Positions 52,838-63,655 of a stretch of 64,000 bases of DNA are shown in pieces; positions within the stretch are counted from its first letter, which is position 1, and each line of letters starts with the position of its first letter. The notes under the pieces were generated by a model. The model worked only from the letters and a program-made list of their open reading frames with translations, was not told the origin of the DNA and did not search any database. The stretch is from Sinorhizobium saheli. GTDB taxonomy: Bacteria; Pseudomonadota; Alphaproteobacteria; Rhizobiales; Rhizobiaceae. The stretch spans positions 5,130 to 69,129 of the forward strand of contig NZ_LNQB01000083.1 of assembly GCF_001651875.1 (NCBI RefSeq), in the 5' to 3' direction. The position numbers were made by a program, and so were the translations under genes.

Positions 52838-52883
52838 GCGGGCGGTCTTCGCCGGTCCTCGCACCGTTTATAGCCCCCGAGAC

Positions 52884-52903
52884 GTCAGGTGTTTCCACCT
52901 GAC
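52884..52903. repeat. GTCAGGTG hairpin repeat, copy 1 (partial)
   Basis: GTCAGGTG-TTTC-CACCTGAC followed by TGCAAAA matches the ends of the two longer repeats at 59219 and 59695. Here only about 35 bases of the element remain, next to the stop of the propeller-like gene. Confidence 0.75.
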
Positions 52904-52915
52904 TGCAAAAACGCC

Positions 52916-53911
52916 CTAACGTTTCAGAAAATGAAGGTTGCCGACCAGATCGGAAACGACGAGTTGGCGCTCGTCCCACACGAGGACGGATACCGGCCGC
53001 GTCAGGCCGGCAAGGACGGTCTCCCGGCGGCGCGTCTTGCCATCGAACTTCAGCAGACGACCGGTGCCCTCCCCGAAACCGCGGCTTTGATCATAAGTCC
53101 CGTGCTCCAGGACGAGCATCGTCCCATCGTCGGCGAAGGTGATCGCCACCGGCGCATTCAGGCCCTGCGCCTCGACCCGCGGCGCTGATCTATCGCCGGT
53201 CTCCGGGACCGAGACGACCTTACCCGCGCCCGCCGCGAAAGGAAAACCGCTGAAAAGGGTGATATAAAGCCGGCCGTCGCGCCGCGCGATGCCGGCCGGT
53301 ACCGCGTCGGTCTCGTACTCCTCGTCTTCCGAAAACTCCGTCGGCGACAGGCGCTGCAGCGTTCGCGCCGCCTGCTTCATGCGCTTGAAGCTGACGACGG
53401 TATTTCGCTCCCCATTTGCGCGCAGGTGCTCGACGCTGTTGCGCGCGGCGTCGACCACGTAAAAGCCATCGGCGGCCGCGACGAAATCGAAGGGGTTCCA
53501 GAAATCGTTGCCGACGACGCGGGTTCCGCCGGCCTCGTCAAGCGCGACGAGCGCGTGGTCGAGCCGCCCCGGCTCCGCATTGGCCGGCGTCCAGCCCTGG
53601 GCGACGACGAACACGTCACCCACCCGGGCGACACGGTACGGCCCGGTCGGATCGCCGATCACGTCCTTGCCGTGCGGGAAGATCGGGCCAAATGCGGCGA
53701 GGCGGCGCTCCGCGTCGCGGCGGTAAAGCCGCCCGCCCGCGAGATCGGTTACAAGCAGCGCATCGCCGTCGCGAGCGAGGCCTCCAAAGGCAGCAGCCGG
53801 CACATGAACGGTCTCGAGCCTGTAGTTCGGCGAACCCGACGGTCCGGCACCCGCATGGGGTGCCAGGAAGACAAGCACGGCGGCAGCGATCAGGGCGCGG
53901 AGCGTAGGCAT
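52916..53911 (-). CDS. Secreted beta-propeller-like protein (ScyD/ScyE type)
   Basis: A 331-aa exported protein. A signal peptide (LIAAAVLVFLAPHAGAG) is followed by repeated blade-like segments: GGLARDGDALLVTDLAGGRL, RVARVGDVFVVAQGWTPANA, DFVAAADGFYVVDAARNSVE, ITFADDGTMLVLEHGTYDQS and VLVWDERQLVVSDLVGNLHF. This pattern fits ScyD/ScyE or NHL-type propellers. The start overlaps the preceding SUMF1-like gene by 22 bases, so it is the last gene of the ABC operon. A role in handling an extracellular sugar or in a periplasmic complex is inference. Confidence 0.8.
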   Translation of the reverse strand: MPTLRALIAAAVLVFLAPHAGAGPSGSPNYRLETVHVPAAAFGGLARDGDALLVTDLAGGRLYRRDAERRLAAFGPIFPHGKDVIGDPTGPYRVARVGDVFVVAQGWTPANAEPGRLDHALVALDEAGGTRVVGNDFWNPFDFVAAADGFYVVDAARNSVEHLRANGERNTVVSFKRMKQAARTLQRLSPTEFSEDEEYETDAVPAGIARRDGRLYITLFSGFPFAAGAGKVVSVPETGDRSAPRVEAQGLNAPVAITFADDGTMLVLEHGTYDQSRGFGEGTGRLLKFDGKTRRRETVLAGLTRPVSVLVWDERQLVVSDLVGNLHFLKR

Positions 53912-54708
53912 CGGAAGCCGCCATTGGCAGAGAAACGGAAATCCGGATCGTAGGCGAGCCGGTAGGTCGCCGTCAGGTGACGTGGATCGCTGTTCCAGGC
54001 GCCGCCGCGAAGCACGCGGAACACAGCCCCGCCCTGCTGCGGGGCTTCTCCGGCCGGCTCGTCAGGGGCGTAGACATCGCTTGTCCACTCCCAGACATTG
54101 CCGACGAGATGGAGCACGCCCTCGCTGCTCGCGCCGCCCGGGAAAGAGTCTGCCGGCGCCGTCATCGCATAGCCGTCGCGCGCGTCTCCAGCGCAGCAGA
54201 CCTCGGCACCGGCGTTGACCCGGGTCGCGTCCGGTGGCGCCGCCCCCCACGGAAACGGTTGGCCGGCAGTACCCCGCGCGGCCCGCTCGTATTGCTCTTC
54301 CGACGGCAGCGAGAGACCATAGTGGCGGCAGAAGGCGTCGGCATCGGCCCAACTGACGCCAACGACGGGACGCTCGTCGAGCCCAAGCACCGGGTGATCG
54401 GCATAGAAGGCGGGCCGATGACCGGTTTCGGCAACGAAGTGGGCATATTGCCGGTTGGTGATCTCCGTGCGGTTGATCGCGAAGGGCCGCCCCTCTACCA
54501 CGAGGCGCGGGCGCTCGTTGTCGGGCCCGTCGTCGCGGCCGAAGACGAAAGGCCCGGCCGGGATATCGACAAGCGGGTTGCCGGTGATCGGCCCGCTCTC
54601 GCCGGCGAGCGCACCGGAGGCAATGAAGAGAGCGACTGCGGCTGCCCCTGCCCCTCTCCTAGGGACTATCGCGACAACCGCCGCGCCTTGTCCACCCGCA
54701 TCCGGCAT
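53890..54708 (-). CDS. SUMF1/formylglycine-generating-enzyme-like exported protein
   Basis: A 272-aa protein of the FGE-sulfatase fold, with an N-terminal hydrophobic segment suggesting export. Motifs: NPLVDIPAGPFVFGRDDG, RTEITNRQYAHFVAETGHRP, VVGVSWADADAFCRHYGLSL, SEEQYERAARGTAGQPFPWG, HLVGNVWEWTSDVY and the C-terminal NGGFRC. The segment RGGAWNSDPRHLTATYRLAY lacks the two cysteines that catalyse formylglycine formation in FGE, so sulfatase activation is unlikely. The ATG at 54708 starts one base after the ABC ATPase stop, with GGAGGG inside that gene. No sulfatase gene is nearby. Confidence 0.88.
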   Translation of the reverse strand: MPDAGGQGAAVVAIVPRRGAGAAAVALFIASGALAGESGPITGNPLVDIPAGPFVFGRDDGPDNERPRLVVEGRPFAINRTEITNRQYAHFVAETGHRPAFYADHPVLGLDERPVVGVSWADADAFCRHYGLSLPSEEQYERAARGTAGQPFPWGAAPPDATRVNAGAEVCCAGDARDGYAMTAPADSFPGGASSEGVLHLVGNVWEWTSDVYAPDEPAGEAPQQGGAVFRVLRGGAWNSDPRHLTATYRLAYDPDFRFSANGGFRCLRSAP

Positions 54709-54709
54709 C

Positions 54710-55783
54710 TCAACCCTCCGGCTTGAAATCGACACGCCGCTCTGTGTCGGCATCGAACAGGAACATGCGATCCCTGGCGATCTTGACGCCGGCGGGCTGG
54801 TCGATCTGCCCGGCGAAATTCTTGTCGGCGCGCAAGGTCATGAGCCGGCCGCCCAGTTGCAGGCTGACGAGCGTATTCTCGCCGGTGAGCTCGACCGAAT
54901 AGATCGGCGCGACCAGGTTGGCCTGGGCGTCGTCTGCAGCGGTGACGAGAGCGTCTTCGGGACGTACGCCGAGAACCGCGCGCGGGATGGTGACGCGGCC
55001 GGCACCGCCCACCCTCAAGCCCGCGCTCTCGAAGACGCCGTCCTTCACCTCGCCCGGGATCAGGTTCATCGACGGCGAACCGATGAAGCCGGCGACGAAC
55101 AGGGTGCGCGGATCATTGTAGATTTCCCGCGGCGTCCCGAGCTGCTCGATCACGCCCTTGTTCATGACCGCCACACGGTTGGCAAGCGTCATCGCCTCGA
55201 TCTGGTCGTGGGTGACATAGATCGTCGTCACCTGCAATTCGTGCTGCAGGTGCTTCAGTTCCGCGCGCATCTGCGTCCTGAGCTTGGCATCGAGGTTCGA
55301 CAGCGGCTCGTCCATCAGGAAGACGCGCGGCGTGCGCACGATGGCGCGCGCGAGCGCCACGCGCTGGCGCTGGCCGCCGGAAAGCTCCTTCGGCAGGCGC
55401 TTGAGCATGGTATCGAGCTCGACCCGCCGCGCCACCTCGCTCACCCGGCGCTTGTATTCCTCCGGCGGCACTTTGCGGATCTTCAGCGGGTAGCCGATAT
55501 TGTCCTCGACCGTCAGGTGCGGGTAGAGCGCGTAGGACTGGAAAACCATGGCCACGTCGCGGTATTTCGGCAGGACGTCGTTGATACGGTCGGCATCGAT
55601 ATAGATGTCGCCGGAGGTCGCCTCCTCGAGGCCCGCGACCATGCGCATGGTCGTCGTCTTGCCGCAGCCCGATGGCCCGAGCAGCACGAGGAACTCCTTG
55701 TCGCGGATCTCGAGGTCGAAGTCGTGGACGGCGACGAACTCGCCGAACTTCTTTGTGACTCTCTCGAACCTGACGGACGCCAT
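54710..55783 (-). CDS. CUT1 sugar ABC transporter ATP-binding protein (MalK/UgpC type)
   Basis: A 357-aa ATPase: Walker A GPSGCGKTT, Q-loop VFQSYALYPHLTV, signature LSGGQRQRVALARAIV, Walker B VFLMDEPLSNLDAKLR, switch His in VTHDQIEAM, and a C-terminal TOBE-type regulatory domain (VLGVRPEDALV, SVELTGENTLVSLQLGG). It serves the two permeases encoded just upstream. The frame continues upstream through permease sequence in another frame; ATG 55783 (MASVRFERVTKKFG) is the family start. Confidence 0.94.
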   Translation of the reverse strand: MASVRFERVTKKFGEFVAVHDFDLEIRDKEFLVLLGPSGCGKTTTMRMVAGLEEATSGDIYIDADRINDVLPKYRDVAMVFQSYALYPHLTVEDNIGYPLKIRKVPPEEYKRRVSEVARRVELDTMLKRLPKELSGGQRQRVALARAIVRTPRVFLMDEPLSNLDAKLRTQMRAELKHLQHELQVTTIYVTHDQIEAMTLANRVAVMNKGVIEQLGTPREIYNDPRTLFVAGFIGSPSMNLIPGEVKDGVFESAGLRVGGAGRVTIPRAVLGVRPEDALVTAADDAQANLVAPIYSVELTGENTLVSLQLGGRLMTLRADKNFAGQIDQPAGVKIARDRMFLFDADTERRVDFKPEG

Positions 55784-55803
55784 AGGCCTCGACCCCTCTC
55801 CCT

Positions 55804-56667
55804 TCACCCCTTGACGGCACCGAGGGAAAGCCCCCGGACGAGATGCTTCTGGACGATGAAGGCGAAGATGACGATCGGCACGCAGGCCATGAAGCCGGCG
55901 GCGCTGATTTCGCCCCAATAGGTGTTGTACTGCGTCACCCGCCCTGCAATGCCGATCGGGAGCGTCTGTGACTGCTCGGTCAGCGTAATTACCAGCGACA
56001 GCAGGAATTCGTTCCAGGAGATGATCAGGGAGAAGATGGCCGTTGCCGCAAGTCCCGGCCGCGCGAGCGGCAGCGCCACATGCAGGAACGCGCCCCAGCG
56101 CGTATCGCCGTCGACGATCGCCGCTTCTTCGAGCTCGATCGGCAGGTCCTGGAAATAGCTCTTCATCATCCAGGTCGCAAACGGCAGGTTGAAGGCGGTG
56201 TAGGCGATGATCAATGCCGACTTCGTGTTGAGCATGTCGAAATAGTTGAAGAACAGGTAGAGCGGAATGATGCTTACGATCGGCGGCATCATCCGGGTCG
56301 ACAGGATCCAGAAGGAGATCTGCCTTCGCCACTGCCAAGGATAGCTGAACCGCGCGAGTGCATAGCCGGCCATGGTGCCGAAAGTCACGGAGACCACGGT
56401 CGTGCCGACCGCGACGAGGAAGCTGTTCAGCGCATAGCGCAGGAACGGACGCTCGATGAAGGCTTCGTCGTAATGTTTCAGCGTTGGGTTCCGCGGCACC
56501 CATTCTGGCGGCACCGCGAAGATGTCGATGTCGAATTTGAAGGAGTTCGCCGCGATCCAATAGACGGGGAAGAGCGTCAGAACGAGGGCGACGAGGATCG
56601 TAAGATAGGCAGCGATGCGCAGCGCCCTCTCCCAGGCGCGGCTGCGGGTTCTGATCGCGGTCGCCAT
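55804..56667 (-). CDS. CUT1 sugar ABC permease (MalG type)
   Basis: A 287-aa permease with six hydrophobic segments, ending in a loop and helix typical of MalG. The EAA loop that docks on the ATPase is ELEEAAIVDGDTRWGAFLHV. FPVYWIAANSFK near the N-terminus and MPPIVSIIPLYLFFNYFD are family features. GTG 56673 is in frame, but ATG 56667 has GGAG at better spacing. It nearly touches the preceding permease gene. Confidence 0.93.
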   Translation of the reverse strand: MATAIRTRSRAWERALRIAAYLTILVALVLTLFPVYWIAANSFKFDIDIFAVPPEWVPRNPTLKHYDEAFIERPFLRYALNSFLVAVGTTVVSVTFGTMAGYALARFSYPWQWRRQISFWILSTRMMPPIVSIIPLYLFFNYFDMLNTKSALIIAYTAFNLPFATWMMKSYFQDLPIELEEAAIVDGDTRWGAFLHVALPLARPGLAATAIFSLIISWNEFLLSLVITLTEQSQTLPIGIAGRVTQYNTYWGEISAAGFMACVPIVIFAFIVQKHLVRGLSLGAVKG

Positions 56668-56673
56668 CGCCAC

Positions 56674-57564
56674 TCACTCCGCCAGCCGCATGCGTTTCAT
56701 GAACCAGGTGCTGAGGATGATCGTCACGAACAGCACGAAGAGCGATATCGCCGCCGCATAGCCGGGATCGGCGAAGCGGTAGGCAACCTGGTAGATATAG
56801 AGGCTCAGGACCTTGGTCCGGTCCGCCGGCCCGCCTCCCGTCAGAATGAAGACAAGATCAAAGAGACGCAGCGCGTCCATCACGCGAAGCAGAAGCGCGA
56901 TGGCGATGACGGGCTTCAGGAAGGGGAGCGTCAGGTCCCAGAACTGCCGCCAGGATGAGGCGCCGTCGAGCGCCGCCGCCTCGTAGGGCTCGACCGGCAG
57001 GCTCGCGAGCCCCGCCAGCATCAATAGAAAGATGAACGGCGTCCATTGCCAGACATCCGCGACGATAATGGAGAACATCGCCAGGTTCACATCGCCCGCC
57101 CAGGCCTGGGTCGGAAGCCCGAGACGGAACATGATCTCGTTCAGGACGCCGAACTGCGGCTCATAGATAAGCTTCCAGGTGATCGCAACGGCGATCGGCG
57201 GCAGCATCATCGGAACCATCAGCACTGTCTTCAGAAACGTGAGCCGGCGGATGAACCTGTCGAGGAGCAGCGCCAGGCCAAGGCCGAGGAGGAACTCGAT
57301 CGATACCGCGATGATGGTGAAGACGGCGGTGTTGCGAAGCGCCACCTGAAACTGCGCGTCGACAAGAAGCCTGCCGAAATTGTCGAATCCCACGAACTGC
57401 CAGGGCAGGTCCGGATTGGGGCTGACACGGTGCACCGCCGCATAGAACATGTAGATGCTGGGGAAGATCGTCAGCGCCAGCAGGATGAGCACCGTCGGAG
57501 CGAGCATCAGGTAGCGCAGATGACGCTCCGCCCAGCACTCCAGACCGCCTCCCGCCTTCACCAT
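56674..57564 (-). CDS. CUT1 sugar ABC permease (MalF type)
   Basis: A 296-aa permease with six hydrophobic segments: LMLAPTVLILLALTIFPSIY at the N-terminus, MLPPIAVAITWKLIYEPQFG in the middle, and the EAA loop YEAAALDGASSWRQFWDLTL. ILTGGGPADRTKVLSLYIYQ is typical of this class. It pairs with the MalG-type gene immediately downstream. Confidence 0.93.
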   Translation of the reverse strand: MVKAGGGLECWAERHLRYLMLAPTVLILLALTIFPSIYMFYAAVHRVSPNPDLPWQFVGFDNFGRLLVDAQFQVALRNTAVFTIIAVSIEFLLGLGLALLLDRFIRRLTFLKTVLMVPMMLPPIAVAITWKLIYEPQFGVLNEIMFRLGLPTQAWAGDVNLAMFSIIVADVWQWTPFIFLLMLAGLASLPVEPYEAAALDGASSWRQFWDLTLPFLKPVIAIALLLRVMDALRLFDLVFILTGGGPADRTKVLSLYIYQVAYRFADPGYAAAISLFVLFVTIILSTWFMKRMRLAE

Positions 57565-57626
57565 CGGACCCTCCCGTGAGCCGTGCGGGGGGCGGAAAAG
57601 CCCCGCCCCCCGGGCACGTTGGTCGC

Positions 57627-58886
57627 CTATTTGAGCCCGGTGATCTGCTCGATCGCGGCCTGCGAGTTCTTCAGCGCCTCTTCCGGCGTGATCGTGCCGG
57701 CGACCGCCTTGGAAAGCTCGATGCCGAAGGCATTCTCGATCTCAGGCCATTTCGGGTGGCGCGGACGCGGCGTCGAGGCCTGGATCGCCTCCATCAGCAC
57801 CGGATAGTGCCGGAACTTCTCCTGCTTCGTCAGTTCCGGATCGGTGAAGACCGAGGCGCGGACGGGCGGATTGCCGCGCTCGGCGGAAACCTTGATCTGT
57901 TCGGCCGAGGTTGCCCAGAGCATGAAATCGAAGGCCTCCTGTTTGTTCTTCGAGGCTGCCATGATTCCCATGGTCCAGTGGCCGATTTCCGAGCTCCCCG
58001 GCTTGGTGCCGGCCGGGATCGGGCTGTAGGAAATCTTGCCGACCATCTTCGACTGGGTCGGATCCTCGAAGGTGGCGACCCAATTCGGCCAGTTGATCGA
58101 CGAGGCGGCGGTACCGGCGGCAAGCGCGGTTCCCACCTCGTTGGCGTTATAACTTTCAACTCCCTTGGGCGAGACGTCGCGTAGCGCCATGAATGTCTTC
58201 ATGGCCGCAGCGCCCTCGGGCGTGTCGATCGTCACCTTCGTCCGGTCCGCGTTGAACATGTCGGCCCCGTAGGACCAGAAGATCGGCATGAAATCGGCAA
58301 CGACCGGGTTGCCCTGGCCGCCGCGGAAGACGTAGCCGAAATAGCGGCCGCCGCCCTGCTCCGTCAGCGTCTTCGCAGCCTTCAATACATCGTCCCAGGT
58401 CTTCGGCGCGTCGACGCCAGCCTCCTTGAATTTCGCGGCGTCATAGAAGAACATCTGGGCGTTGCCCACATAGGGCAGGCATACATACGGCCCCGTGTTG
58501 TAGGGATTGCGGCAGATCGCCAGCGACTTCGACAGGAAGTCGTCATCCGGGCCTTCCAGGCCGGCCTTCTTGAAGTATTCGGTCAAGTCCTCGAGGTGCC
58601 CGTTCTCGGCGAAGAACGGAATCCACGGATCATCCATGAGAATGATGTCAAAGACGCCGGACTTCGTCGCGCCTGCATTGGCGCCCTGTTCGAAGACATT
58701 GGCATAGGGCGCCTGGACCGCCTCCACCTTCGTGCCCTTCATCTTGGCGTAGTCGGCGGCGGCGGCTCTCAAGCCGTCGCCTTCGCTGCCCGAGGGCACG
58801 AGGATCGTAATATCGGCCCAGGCTAGCCCGCTGATCGCGAGCGCCGATGCCCCTACCGCCAAGGCGAGACACAGTTTGCGCACCAT
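57627..58886 (-). CDS. CUT1 sugar-binding protein (family 1 solute-binding)
   Basis: A 419-aa periplasmic receptor. The signal peptide (LCLALAVGASALAISGLAWA) is followed by ITILVPSGSEGDGLRAAAAD, DIILMDDPWIPFFAENGHLE, YLPYVGNAQ-like CLPYVGNAQMFFYD, and YFGYVFRGGQGNPVVADFMP. Starts at 58889 and 58886 are both possible; the second lies 6 bases after GGGAGG. First gene of a six-gene operon with permeases, ATPase, SUMF1-like and propeller-like proteins. Substrate unknown. Confidence 0.92.
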   Translation of the reverse strand: MVRKLCLALAVGASALAISGLAWADITILVPSGSEGDGLRAAAADYAKMKGTKVEAVQAPYANVFEQGANAGATKSGVFDIILMDDPWIPFFAENGHLEDLTEYFKKAGLEGPDDDFLSKSLAICRNPYNTGPYVCLPYVGNAQMFFYDAAKFKEAGVDAPKTWDDVLKAAKTLTEQGGGRYFGYVFRGGQGNPVVADFMPIFWSYGADMFNADRTKVTIDTPEGAAAMKTFMALRDVSPKGVESYNANEVGTALAAGTAASSINWPNWVATFEDPTQSKMVGKISYSPIPAGTKPGSSEIGHWTMGIMAASKNKQEAFDFMLWATSAEQIKVSAERGNPPVRASVFTDPELTKQEKFRHYPVLMEAIQASTPRPRHPKWPEIENAFGIELSKAVAGTITPEEALKNSQAAIEQITGLK

Positions 58887-59113
58887 CATACACCTCCCAA
58901 TCCGAGCTCCCTTGCGGACCGCCCCATGGAGGCCCGCCCGATCCGGCCGGCGGAGATGCTGGTGCAACGTTGACGGCGGACCGACCCGAAACCGGGCAGG
59001 CCACCATCGGGCTTCTCCACAAGCCGGCGTTGCTCCCGTCCCAAATCTACCACAACGCGCCTTGTTTATCGCGCTTTGTTTAGAGTGCTCTCATGCAACG
59101 AGCCCTTGCCTTC
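58887..59113. promoter_or_regulatory. Upstream region of the CUT1 operon with 14-bp-period direct repeats
   Basis: No gene is seen. GCGCCTTGTTTA (59057-59068) and GCGCTTTGTTTA (59071-59082) are direct repeats 14 bp apart, one mismatch, and an 8-bp palindrome CAACGTTG lies at 58965-58972. Either may be a regulator site for the operon transcribed leftward. Confidence 0.35.
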
Positions 59114-59320
59114 TTGGCTAAAGCGCGTAGCAATTGAATTCATGCGATGCGCTTAGGTTTTTGTTCTCATGCATGGCGTCGTCCCAAAACCGCTGCGCAC
59201 TTTTGGGCGACATGCATTAGAGCGGGATGCGCTCACATGCGTTCGCGCCCGCCGCCCTATCTGTGTTTTGACGCATTGGTGCGACGTCAGGTGATTCCAC
59301 CTGACTGCAAAATGCTCTAG
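59114..59320. repeat. Rhizobial intergenic mosaic repeat, copy 2
   Basis: A block starting AGCGGGATGCGCTCACATGC (59221) and ending with GTCAGGTG-ATTC-CACCTGAC, TGCAAAATGCT (to about 59320) is repeated at 59695-59797 with several substitutions. Just left of it, GTCCCAAAACCGC to GCGCACTTTTGGGC (59180-59208) forms another dyad typical of rhizobial intergenic repeats. The element abuts the stop of the small secreted-protein gene. Confidence 0.75.
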
Positions 59321-59553
59321 AACCCAAACCCTCCAGGCGCGCCTTGGGAAACACTCGGGAGCCACAGGCCCTCGGCCCCACGCCAGCCGACAATCGGAAT
59401 GTCGCACTTGCGATCGAACTTGCCGATCGGCGCCCGGCGCACGCAATTCTCCGCAGTTCGGAATTTGTGGCCCGGGATCTGGATCGTCCTGTCTGCCGCA
59501 TGGGAGTTGGCCCACAATAGAAGGGCCAGCGCGCAAAGCGTGATCGTGCGCAT
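59317..59553 (-). CDS. Small secreted protein of unknown function
   Basis: A 78-aa precursor with a signal peptide MRTITLCALALLLWANSHAA and a mature part of about 58 residues, with two cysteines (AENCVRR, RKCDIP) that could pair, and a Gly/Phe-rich end (GAPGGFGF). GGAGG lies 8 bases before ATG 59553, which supports real translation. No family recognised. It lies between two copies of the mosaic repeat. Confidence 0.72.
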   Translation of the reverse strand: MRTITLCALALLLWANSHAADRTIQIPGHKFRTAENCVRRAPIGKFDRKCDIPIVGWRGAEGLWLPSVSQGAPGGFGF

Positions 59554-61278: not shown

Positions 61279-62745
61279 TTGACCAGACTTTCCAGACAGG
61301 CACTCGACCGCCTTCCAAATGCCGTCAAAGGACCGAACTACGACCCCGCACGGGTGACGGTCGGCATCGTCCATCTCGGCATCGGTGCCTTTCACCGGGC
61401 GCATCAGGCAGCCTTCACCGACGCGGTGCTCGCCGATGACCCCTCCTGGGGCATTTGCGGCGTTTCGCTCAGAAGCCCGGACACGCGAGACGCGCTTCAA
61501 CCGCAGGACGGTCTCTACACGCTTGCGGTCGTTGACGGAGAAGGCTCGCAACTGCAGGTGATCGGCAGTGTCGTCGAGCTCCTCTGCGCGCCGGAAGACC
61601 CGGAGGCCGTGCTGAGCCGCATGGCCGATCCCGCGACGCGCATCGTCTCGCTGACGATCACCGAGAAAGGCTATTGCCACAATCCCGCGACCGGCGCGCT
61701 CGACGAGAACCATCCCGACATCGTCCACGACCTTGCCAATCCGCGGCAAGCGCGTTCGGCGATCGGCTTCATTGTAGAGGCGCTCGCGCGCCGGGCAGCC
61801 TCCGGCGTCGAACCGTTCACCTTGCTCACCTGCGACAATCTCCCCTCCAACGGCCATGTGCTGAAACGCGTCGTCACGCGCTTCGCCGAGCTTCGCGATC
61901 CTGCGCTCGCCGCCCTCGCCGGCACCGTCGCCTCGCCGTCCACCATGGTCGACCGGATCGTCCCGGCAACGACCGATGCCGACCGCAGCAGGATCGCCGT
62001 GGCGCTCGGGCTTGAGGACGCCTGGCCGGTGATGACCGAGCCGTTCCGGCAATGGGTGATCGAGGACAATTTCCCGCTCGGCCGCCCGGCCTGGGAGAAG
62101 GCCGGGGCGCTTTTTGCCGACGACGTCTCCGTCTTCGAGATGATGAAGCTGCGGCTGCTCAACGGCAGCCACTCGACGCTCGCCTATCTCGGCTATCTCG
62201 CCGGTGCCGAGACGGTGGCCGAGGCGATGGCCCTGCCGGGCATGGAAGCGCTAATCGAGGGGCTGATGCGCGAAGAGGTGACCCCGACCTTGCCGCCCCT
62301 GCCGGGCATCGACCTCGCGGCCTACAGGGCCGAACTGCTCGACCGCTTCCGCAATCCGGCGCTCCGTCACCGCACCTGGCAGATCGCCATGGACGGTTCG
62401 CAGAAACTGCCGCAGCGCCTCCTCGGCACGATCCGCGACCGGATGAAGGCGGGAGCCGGCTACGATCGGCTGGCGCTCGGCGTCGCCGCCTGGATGCGCT
62501 ATGCGCGCGGCCTGGACGAGGCCGGCCGCGCGATCGATGTCCGCGATCCGCACGCGGCGCGCATCACCGGGCTCGCGCAGGGGATCGGCGAACCGGATGG
62601 GATCGTCGCGGCTCTCCTGACGATGACGGACGTCTTCGGCCCGGACCTCTCGACCAGTGAGCCGTTCCGGCTGGCGCTCGTCAAAGCCTTGACGAGACTT
62701 CTCGAGGATGGGGCGGCAGCGACCGTTCGCTCCTACGCTCCGTGA
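61279..62745 (+). CDS. Mannitol dehydrogenase family protein (mannitol 2-dehydrogenase or fructuronate reductase)
   Basis: A long-chain polyol dehydrogenase of 488 aa. The nucleotide-binding start is VGIVHLGIGAFHRAHQAAFT, followed by GVSLRSPDTRDALQPQDGLY, TLLTCDNLPSNGHVLKRVVT, VDRIVPATTDAD and the catalytic region KLRLLNGSHSTLAYLGYLAG. The likely start is TTG at 61279, with GAGG 8 bases upstream. Length suits both MtlK-type mannitol 2-dehydrogenase and UxuB-type fructuronate reductase, and the motifs visible do not separate them. It converges with a fructose-type ABC operon, which fits a polyol/fructose role. Confidence 0.9.
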   Translation: MTRLSRQALDRLPNAVKGPNYDPARVTVGIVHLGIGAFHRAHQAAFTDAVLADDPSWGICGVSLRSPDTRDALQPQDGLYTLAVVDGEGSQLQVIGSVVELLCAPEDPEAVLSRMADPATRIVSLTITEKGYCHNPATGALDENHPDIVHDLANPRQARSAIGFIVEALARRAASGVEPFTLLTCDNLPSNGHVLKRVVTRFAELRDPALAALAGTVASPSTMVDRIVPATTDADRSRIAVALGLEDAWPVMTEPFRQWVIEDNFPLGRPAWEKAGALFADDVSVFEMMKLRLLNGSHSTLAYLGYLAGAETVAEAMALPGMEALIEGLMREEVTPTLPPLPGIDLAAYRAELLDRFRNPALRHRTWQIAMDGSQKLPQRLLGTIRDRMKAGAGYDRLALGVAAWMRYARGLDEAGRAIDVRDPHAARITGLAQGIGEPDGIVAALLTMTDVFGPDLSTSEPFRLALVKALTRLLEDGAAATVRSYAP

Positions 62746-62866: not shown

Positions 62867-63655
62867 TTACGGCCGGCGCGGGCTGGCTTCGTCTGCGGTC
62901 AGCGCCGTTTCGCGCGTGCCCGAGACGATGATCTCCAGCACCTCGTGTTCGTCGGTGTTCCTGACGTAGCGATCGCCGACATATTCGCCGCGTTTCAGCA
63001 CCATCACGCGGTCGCCGACGGCGAAGATGTCGACGAGGCGGTGCGAGATGATGATCTGCGCCACGCCCTGGCGCTTGAGTTCGAGCATCGTCTCCAGCAG
63101 CCGTTCGGTCGCCATGGCGGAGAGGTTGGCGGTCGGCTCGTCGAGGATCACGACGGGCGGCTCGAAGGAGATCGCCCGCGCGATCGCCACGGATTGCTGG
63201 CGTCCGCCGGAGAGGCTTTCGACCTTCTGATAGACGGAGTTGACGTCGACCTTTAGCCGCTTCAGCACGCGGTCGGCTTCCTGATACATCCGCCGCCGGT
63301 CGACGAAGGGACCTCTGAGCGGCCAACGGCCGAGGAAGATGTTCTGGCCGACATCCATGTTCCCGCAGAGCGCAAAATCCTGGTAGATCATCTCGATTCC
63401 GGCCGCGCGGCTCTCGTGCGGGCTCCTGAAGTGCACCGGCCGGCCGGCGACGAGGATTTCGCCTGCGTCGCGCTGATAGGCGCCGGTGAGTATTTTCATG
63501 AGCGTCGACTTTCCCGCCGAATTGTCACCGACGAGGCCGAGGATCTCGCCGGGGTAAAGCACCAGGTCGACGTCGCGCAGCGCCTGCACGGCGCCGAAGG
63601 CCTTCTCGATGCCGCGCATCTCCACGATCGGCTCGATGGATGCCGCGTCAGCCAT
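62867..63655 (-). CDS. Sugar ABC transporter ATP-binding protein (FrcA-like, single domain)
   Basis: A 262-aa ATPase with one nucleotide-binding domain, unlike the duplicated proteins at 33450 and 39557. Walker A is GDNSAGKST, as in FrcA of rhizobial fructose uptake; the Q-loop is IYQDFALCGNM, the signature LSGGRQQSVAIARAI, Walker B VVILDEPTANLS and the switch His IISHRLVDIF. It overlaps the upstream permease gene by 8 bases. Fructose, mannose or ribose are plausible substrates. Confidence 0.9.
   Translation of the reverse strand: MADAASIEPIVEMRGIEKAFGAVQALRDVDLVLYPGEILGLVGDNSAGKSTLMKILTGAYQRDAGEILVAGRPVHFRSPHESRAAGIEMIYQDFALCGNMDVGQNIFLGRWPLRGPFVDRRRMYQEADRVLKRLKVDVNSVYQKVESLSGGRQQSVAIARAISFEPPVVILDEPTANLSAMATERLLETMLELKRQGVAQIIISHRLVDIFAVGDRVMVLKRGEYVGDRYVRNTDEHEVLEIIVSGTRETALTADEASPRRP

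Follow-up and report, generated by a model that had tools for sequence, protein, structure and literature searches.

What a sugar importer operon gains from two further genes, one for a protein with the fold of the formylglycine-generating enzyme (FGE) and the other for a beta-propeller, is the question raised by a locus of Sinorhizobium saheli. The window analyzed here is a 64,000-nt stretch of NZ_LNQB01000083.1, and coordinates are given in window numbering. Six genes stand in one row on its minus strand, from 58886 to 52916, and encode a substrate-binding protein, two permeases, and an ATPase of an ATP-binding cassette (ABC) importer, followed by the FGE-fold protein and the propeller (Table 1). 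Our tentative answer, to which we give somewhat less than an even chance, is that the last two proteins act in the periplasm on the small-molecule substrate of their own importer and that a conserved 5' leader tunes translation. Proteins that have the FGE fold and lack its catalytic cysteines are common, and what many of them do is not known. The one described here is tied to a transporter as well as to another protein that is probably exported, and its role is therefore approachable through growth and uptake of mutants in a tractable rhizobium. A literature search of titles and the beginnings of abstracts, with most subscription journals outside its reach, found no paper describing this six-gene operon.

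Operon layout, inheritance, and selection

The first four genes share with CUT1 carbohydrate ABC importers an SBP_bac_1 binding protein, two BPD_transp_1 permeases, and one MalK/UgpC-type ATPase, and the operon differs from such importers in its two additional, probably exported gene products. The Pfam and NCBIfam matches thereby bear out an earlier interpretation made without database searches (the sequence-only reading), which had described a sugar ABC operon with a binding protein, two permeases, an ATPase, and an FGE-fold protein. Among solved structures, those nearest to the binding protein bind sugars (best, 5iai, E 9.6e-35), and the family of the binding protein makes a sugar or polyol the probable ligand. 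The gene starts at ATG 58886, with a second in-frame ATG at 58889. The FGE-fold gene shares 22 bases (53890 to 53911) with the propeller gene, and the identical overlap is present in 35 of 35 loci; the sequence-only reading had the length right and its nature wrong, having taken the overlap for a junction. The 1-base junction that it had noted between the ATPase stop and the FGE-fold ATG (54708) is real in the window and is not a conserved trait, as this spacing varies from -59 to +172 (automatic starts) and equals 1 in only 6 of the 35 loci. The operon would end with two co-translated accessory proteins, both probably exported.

Close relatives of the operon were found in Sinorhizobium/Ensifer and Rhizobium species. 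In all 13 loci from named genomes with the propeller, the six genes keep the same order and strand, with permease 1 of L009 matching in two pieces. A survey of 200 relatives, the own genome counted, matched the propeller in 30 genomes, comprising 28 of the 33 genus genomes and two others of the family. The binding protein was matched in the same 30 genomes, with at least 78% identity in 29 of them; in G095 (L048, G095:C1:6472744-6473998), it appears as two overlapping pieces (89% and 68%), one with an internal stop, and the gene may therefore be broken there. Beyond the 30, two genomes have binding-protein relatives at only 32% and 38% identity. The FGE-fold protein was matched in the same 30 genomes at identities of at least 67%, and 11 more genomes have matches at 34 to 47%. 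Five genus genomes, G006, G009 (70% complete), G017, G025, and G031, have neither the binding protein nor the FGE-fold protein nor the propeller. The binding protein is likewise matched in each of the 22 plasmid records with a propeller match, pNGR234b of Sinorhizobium fredii NGR234 among them, and in the order, the propeller profile matches 3 of 397 sampled genomes, of which one is the own genome and one is a weak match. Because its parts occur together in the same genomes and plasmid records, the six-gene set is inherited as a unit. The survey of conservation that the sequence-only reading had suggested thus came out in its favor, the arrangement not being unique to one strain.

All six genes are under purifying selection. 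Ratios of nonsynonymous to synonymous substitution rates (dN/dS) in 11 locus pairs are below 0.4 for every gene, with values of 0 to 0.21 for the importer genes, 0.12 to 0.21 for the FGE-fold gene, and 0.13 to 0.38 for the propeller. Between L006 and L013, identity is 71 to 78% and dS 1.0 to 1.3 for the binding protein and the two permeases, compared with a dS of 0.40 to 0.45 for the ATPase, the FGE-fold gene, and the propeller, and the L006 binding protein shares 88 to 90% identity with its counterparts in the Rhizobium loci L011, L012, and L036. At L006 5034-8200, the genes for the binding protein and the two permeases look swapped for a Rhizobium-like allele, with the ATPase, FGE-fold, and propeller genes retained; G001 and G023 may carry the same exchange, for which the binding-protein identity of 78% is the only observation. 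In the L003/L005 pair, the dS of the FGE-fold gene is 0.40, compared with 0.05 to 0.10 for the other five genes, which suggests recombination within the FGE-fold gene.

Table 1. Features of the operon and its upstream region in window coordinates
Feature	Position	Strand	Basis and remarks
Conserved promoter-like stretch upstream of the leader, containing TGTGGTAGATTT	59038..59090	-	Alignment
Conserved, possibly structured 5' leader	about 58890..59037	-	Alignments, identity compared with flanks, single copy per genome, weak covariation; ends at the ribosome-binding site GGGAGG (58893-58898)
Substrate-binding protein (SBP_bac_1), CUT1 type	57627..58886	-	PF01547, 183.7 bits
Permease 1	56674..57564	-	PF00528, 68.4 bits
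Permease 2	55804..56673	-	PF00528, 72.7 bits; GTG start abuts the permease 1 stop
ATPase, UgpC/MalK type	54710..55783	-	NF008653, 447.2 bits (cut-off, 432); PF00005 and OB_MalK
FGE-fold protein, hydrophobic N-terminus	53890..54708	-	PF03781, 157.3 bits
Predicted six-bladed propeller, hydrophobic N-terminus	52916..53911	-	NF033206, 107.5 bits (cut-off, 80); model pLDDT, 87.2

The FGE-fold protein and the propeller

The FGE-fold protein shares domain and fold matches with FGE (SUMF1). Its PF03781 domain spans most of the protein and scores far above the cut-off of 23.3 bits, and many solved FGEs match it, such as 6muj (E 2.5e-22). With residues counted from the ATG at 54708, the segment aligned with the catalytic cysteines of solved FGEs, which we take to be those corresponding to Cys336 and Cys341 of human FGE, reads GGAWNSDPRHL, with Ser240 and Leu245 at the two positions. 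All 35 loci, with 27 distinct sequences among them, have Ser at the first position; at the second, 34 have Leu and L018 alone has Thr. The sequence-only reading was thus right that the catalytic cysteines are lacking and wrong in calling the protein cysteine-less, since Cys127, Cys171, Cys172, and Cys267 are invariant across 20 aligned rows. Cys127 and Cys267 presumably correspond to the structural disulfide of human FGE. The vicinal pair Cys171-Cys172 is also present in the three nearest relatives found in the order (L043 to L045) and absent from L047, L049, and L050. In a class-wide search with one such relative, all 12 readable loci of the best 14 had the pair, as against none of the 5 readable loci of the next 6 (L066, L070, and L074 were not read for the motif). 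Because the pair recurs in alphaproteobacterial relatives, the window protein is a branch of a vicinal-cysteine FGE-fold group. It differs from FGE in having neither catalytic cysteine in any of the 35 loci, in the absence of a sulfatase from the operon, and in a vicinal cysteine pair of its own. Two of the relatives, L044 and L045, lie beside ABC genes that are on the opposite strand or separated from them by an opposite-strand gene, and this proximity was therefore not taken as a link.

The last protein of the operon, which the sequence-only reading had described as beta-propeller-like, is confidently predicted to be a six-bladed propeller (mean predicted local distance difference test [pLDDT] score, 87.2; predicted template modeling score, 0.86; 14 sequences), and the family match given below agrees with that description. 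Foldseek and VIA-align 2 found matches among six-bladed propellers, including designed Pizza6 proteins and NHL domains. Structures of Campylobacter Cj1041c are the best match (Z 28.1, root mean square deviation [rmsd] 2.0, 241 aligned), and other matches include 2p4o (Z 25.7, rmsd 2.8, 249 aligned), the lactonase RPA3624 (8djf; Z 25.6, rmsd 2.5, 247 aligned), and the gluconolactonase XC5397 (3dr2; Z 25.5, rmsd 2.5, 244 aligned). With SMP-30/gluconolactonase propellers, the predicted structure thus shares the six-bladed fold at a Z of about 25, whereas sequence identities are only 10 to 15% and Cj1041c is a better match than the lactonases. No Pfam family, SGL included, matched the propeller at E 0.001, and a sequence search of PDB gave no match at E 1. 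The ScyD/ScyE family NF033206 matches above its cut-off, covering only profile positions 141 to 318 of 333. This family is rare in Alphaproteobacteria, being matched at E 1e-12 in 1 of 337 sampled class genomes, namely, the own genome, compared with 2 of 14 control genomes of other groups. PMC6282210 describes ScyE as periplasmic and needed for scytonemin, with a mutant that accumulates the monomer and a proposed role in oxidative dimerization, and PMC4870267 had earlier found neither scytonemin nor the predicted intermediates in the mutant. The window propeller shares the family match with ScyD/ScyE and differs in sitting beside an importer; the scanned genes around the operon are of other kinds than scytonemin genes, no search aimed at the latter having been made.

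Possible roles of the pair

The hydrophobic N-termini of the FGE-fold protein and the propeller indicate that both probably reach the periplasm. There, the pair would bind or convert the ligand, for example by oxidation or by ring or lactone opening, into a form accepted by the binding protein. The sequence-only reading had likewise suggested that the pair may capture or modify the substrate ahead of uptake, perhaps as a periplasmic complex, and its interpretation is supported in part, through the conservation of the gene set and its joint inheritance. Co-inheritance, gene order, the overlap, the dN/dS values, and the hydrophobic N-termini are all consistent with such a role, as are the fold that the propeller has in common with SMP-30-type lactonases and the periplasmic small-molecule role proposed for ScyE (PMC6282210). 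A weak similarity (56 bits) to the dihydropyoverdine dehydrogenase PvdO (NF051459), an FGE-fold protein whose family name implies a small-molecule substrate, points the same way. A more specific version, in which the vicinal-cysteine FGE branch would oxidize a small molecule (or serve as a metal or redox protein) and together with a ScyE-like propeller convert a plant or soil compound and hand the product to the binding protein, with a so far undescribed leader RNA setting translation, we consider unlikely.

Several observations weigh against substrate handling by the pair. In L006, the importer half was apparently exchanged and the pair retained, a looser bond than one would expect if the pair were made for a single binding protein. 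The structure predicted for the FGE-fold protein is poor (mean pLDDT, 42.2; 14 sequences), and the curated NCBIfam cut-offs were missed for PvdO (56 of 500 bits), EgtB (86.1 of 360), and SenA (94.1 of 420); the siderophore genes that go with PvdO are also not here. The six-bladed propeller fold serves many functions, and the fold alone shows none of them. Moreover, no sugar-metabolism gene was found to adjoin the operon in all 13 loci.

The alternative that survives best, although it is itself rather unlikely, is that the two proteins are maturation or assembly factors, with the FGE-fold protein aiding the folding or metal uptake of an exported protein, either the binding protein or a different one, and the propeller serving as a scaffold. 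It draws on the only other PF03781 protein of the genome (L047 8857-9771, contig C101), which adjoins a copper nitrite reductase (NirK) and also lacks the catalytic pair, whereas this operon has no metalloprotein and the pair is missing where related binding proteins of about 38% identity are found. The L047 protein is of the NirV type, the function of which has, to our knowledge, not been established. The window protein shares with it the FGE fold without the catalytic pair and the absence of a sulfatase, but the two are only 25% identical, L047 has no vicinal cysteine pair, and its NirK neighbor sets it apart. The window protein was rejected as NirV, the gene beside NirK being a different one.

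The link of the pair to the importer could also be one of expression only, with the two proteins working in signaling or at the envelope, for example, as ligand sensors. Propellers are often binding domains and exchange of the importer half can leave the pair in place, but the all-or-none inheritance with the importer, and the fact that no partner regulator adjoins the operon in all loci, make this quite improbable. A further alternative is that the two genes are passengers, under selection for some purpose that has nothing to do with the importer. Their patchy presence (28 of the 33 genus genomes and few others) and the mostly different neighbors in Rhizobium would fit passengers; the fixed overlap and the absence of any genome with only one part (0 of 30) would not, and we regard this explanation as very unlikely.

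The weakest alternative, an exceedingly improbable one, would have the FGE-fold protein activate Cys-type sulfatases in an unorthodox way, with Cys171-Cys172 replacing the usual cysteine pair. The sequence-only reading had stated that no sulfatase is present, which holds for the window, where PF00884 has no match, and not for the genome, which has six such matches. Three of these six proteins carry Cys-x-Pro-x-Arg (L053, L054, and L055 on contigs C50, C73, and C57, respectively), and neither of the two PF03781 proteins of the genome has the usual catalytic pair, which together would leave room for an activator of another kind. One of the three is, by its motif, choline-sulfatase-like. It was matched in 41 of 60 relatives, including 33 of 33 genus genomes and so all 5 without the operon, four of them at 93 to 95% and G009 at 70%, the motif having been read in the query and not in the matches. 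In addition, the starts of the three sulfatase-family proteins show no obvious signal peptide on inspection, yet the FGE-fold protein looks exported. Since the catalytic pair is missing and the choline-sulfatase-like protein is present where the operon is absent, activation of a sulfatase encoded elsewhere, which the sequence-only reading had named as an outcome that would contradict it, is unlikely, and the FGE-fold protein would be no sulfatase activator. PMC5870055, with which the choline-sulfatase motif may also be compared, states that formylglycine in Escherichia coli is made by an unknown endogenous enzyme, and there is therefore some precedent for sulfatases that lack a canonical FGE.

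The leader and the surroundings of the operon

The extent given by the sequence-only reading (52916 to 58886) covers the six genes and stops short of the conserved leader, which lies beyond it (about 58890 to 59037). Thirty further upstream stretches of the binding protein were fetched, and 38 distinct sequences were aligned. Most of the 38 share a conserved segment of about 150 bases that runs up to the ribosome-binding site, and the leader core is absent from L108 (G095), L011, and L012. In L095 (G027), L099 (G010), L102 (G029), and L105 (G016), foreign-looking insertions occur within or just upstream of the leader, and the part proximal to the ribosome-binding site is kept. Alignment A8 contains 28 of the 38 upstream stretches, with omission of the four with insertions, the three without the core, L036 because of its divergence, and, without a reason of substance, L089 and L097, the latter of which was used in alignment A9. 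The 13 rows of A9 were hand-picked from the clade of the window, the divergent L080 and L103 being omitted.

Among six Sinorhizobium loci, the mean pairwise identity of the leader is 0.85, compared with 0.58 after shuffling and 0.58 downstream of the operon, and three stretches farther upstream have identities of 0.71 to 0.72. Among four Rhizobium loci, it is 0.90, compared with 0.55 to 0.59 beyond the promoter. The promoter-like stretch has identities of 0.71 and 0.81 in six Sinorhizobium and four Rhizobium loci, respectively. Minimum-energy folds of the 13 hand-picked leaders contain a closing helix in all 13, a hairpin in 12, and a helix that includes the Shine-Dalgarno sequence in 10. Stability relative to shuffles, calculated for five single sequences, gave z values of -3.4 and -3.9 for two leaders that are far more stable than their shuffles, -1.5 for the window, and +0.7 and +0.9 for the other clade, the leaders of which yield a different consensus structure. 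Covariation is weak: 94.2% of cells are paired, compared with 92.9% in shuffles (reached by 0 of 500), the score is reached by 5 of 500 shuffles, and the 3 pairs changed on both sides are a count reached by 68 of 500.

At E 0.1, a model built from 13 leaders had matches in 28 of the 100 genomes searched. All 28 are genus members with the operon, and 13 of them match by construction. The matches sit just upstream of the binding protein only (split in G016 and G029), and the leader was not found anywhere else than at this operon in the 100 genomes. Rfam gave no credible match for the leader, the only ones being at E 1.6 and 2.2, far under the gathering scores. The leader is a cis element of this operon. 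It would probably tune translation of the operon, perhaps as a translational switch or small-RNA target, and its use as a reporter may reveal the inducing compound.

The neighbors of the operon vary among loci. A glutamine synthetase gene and a HAD gene occur close to the operon in 7 of 8 Sinorhizobium/Ensifer loci, compared with 0 of 5 Rhizobium loci. Upstream in the window are a mannitol-dehydrogenase-family gene (61279 to 62745) and an RbsA-type ABC ATPase gene (62867 to 63655), which were found in 6 and 3 of the 13 loci whose flanks were examined and are therefore not constant partners. The two binding proteins of about 38% identity (L038 and L046) have LacI-type regulators close by and nothing substrate-specific among their neighbors. 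A short inverted repeat of the GGTG...CACC type flanks the operon at about 52880 to 52905 and at 59132 to 59323, and the latter stretch matches Rfam BASRCI27 at 30.0 and 23.1 bits, under the gathering score of 59.8.

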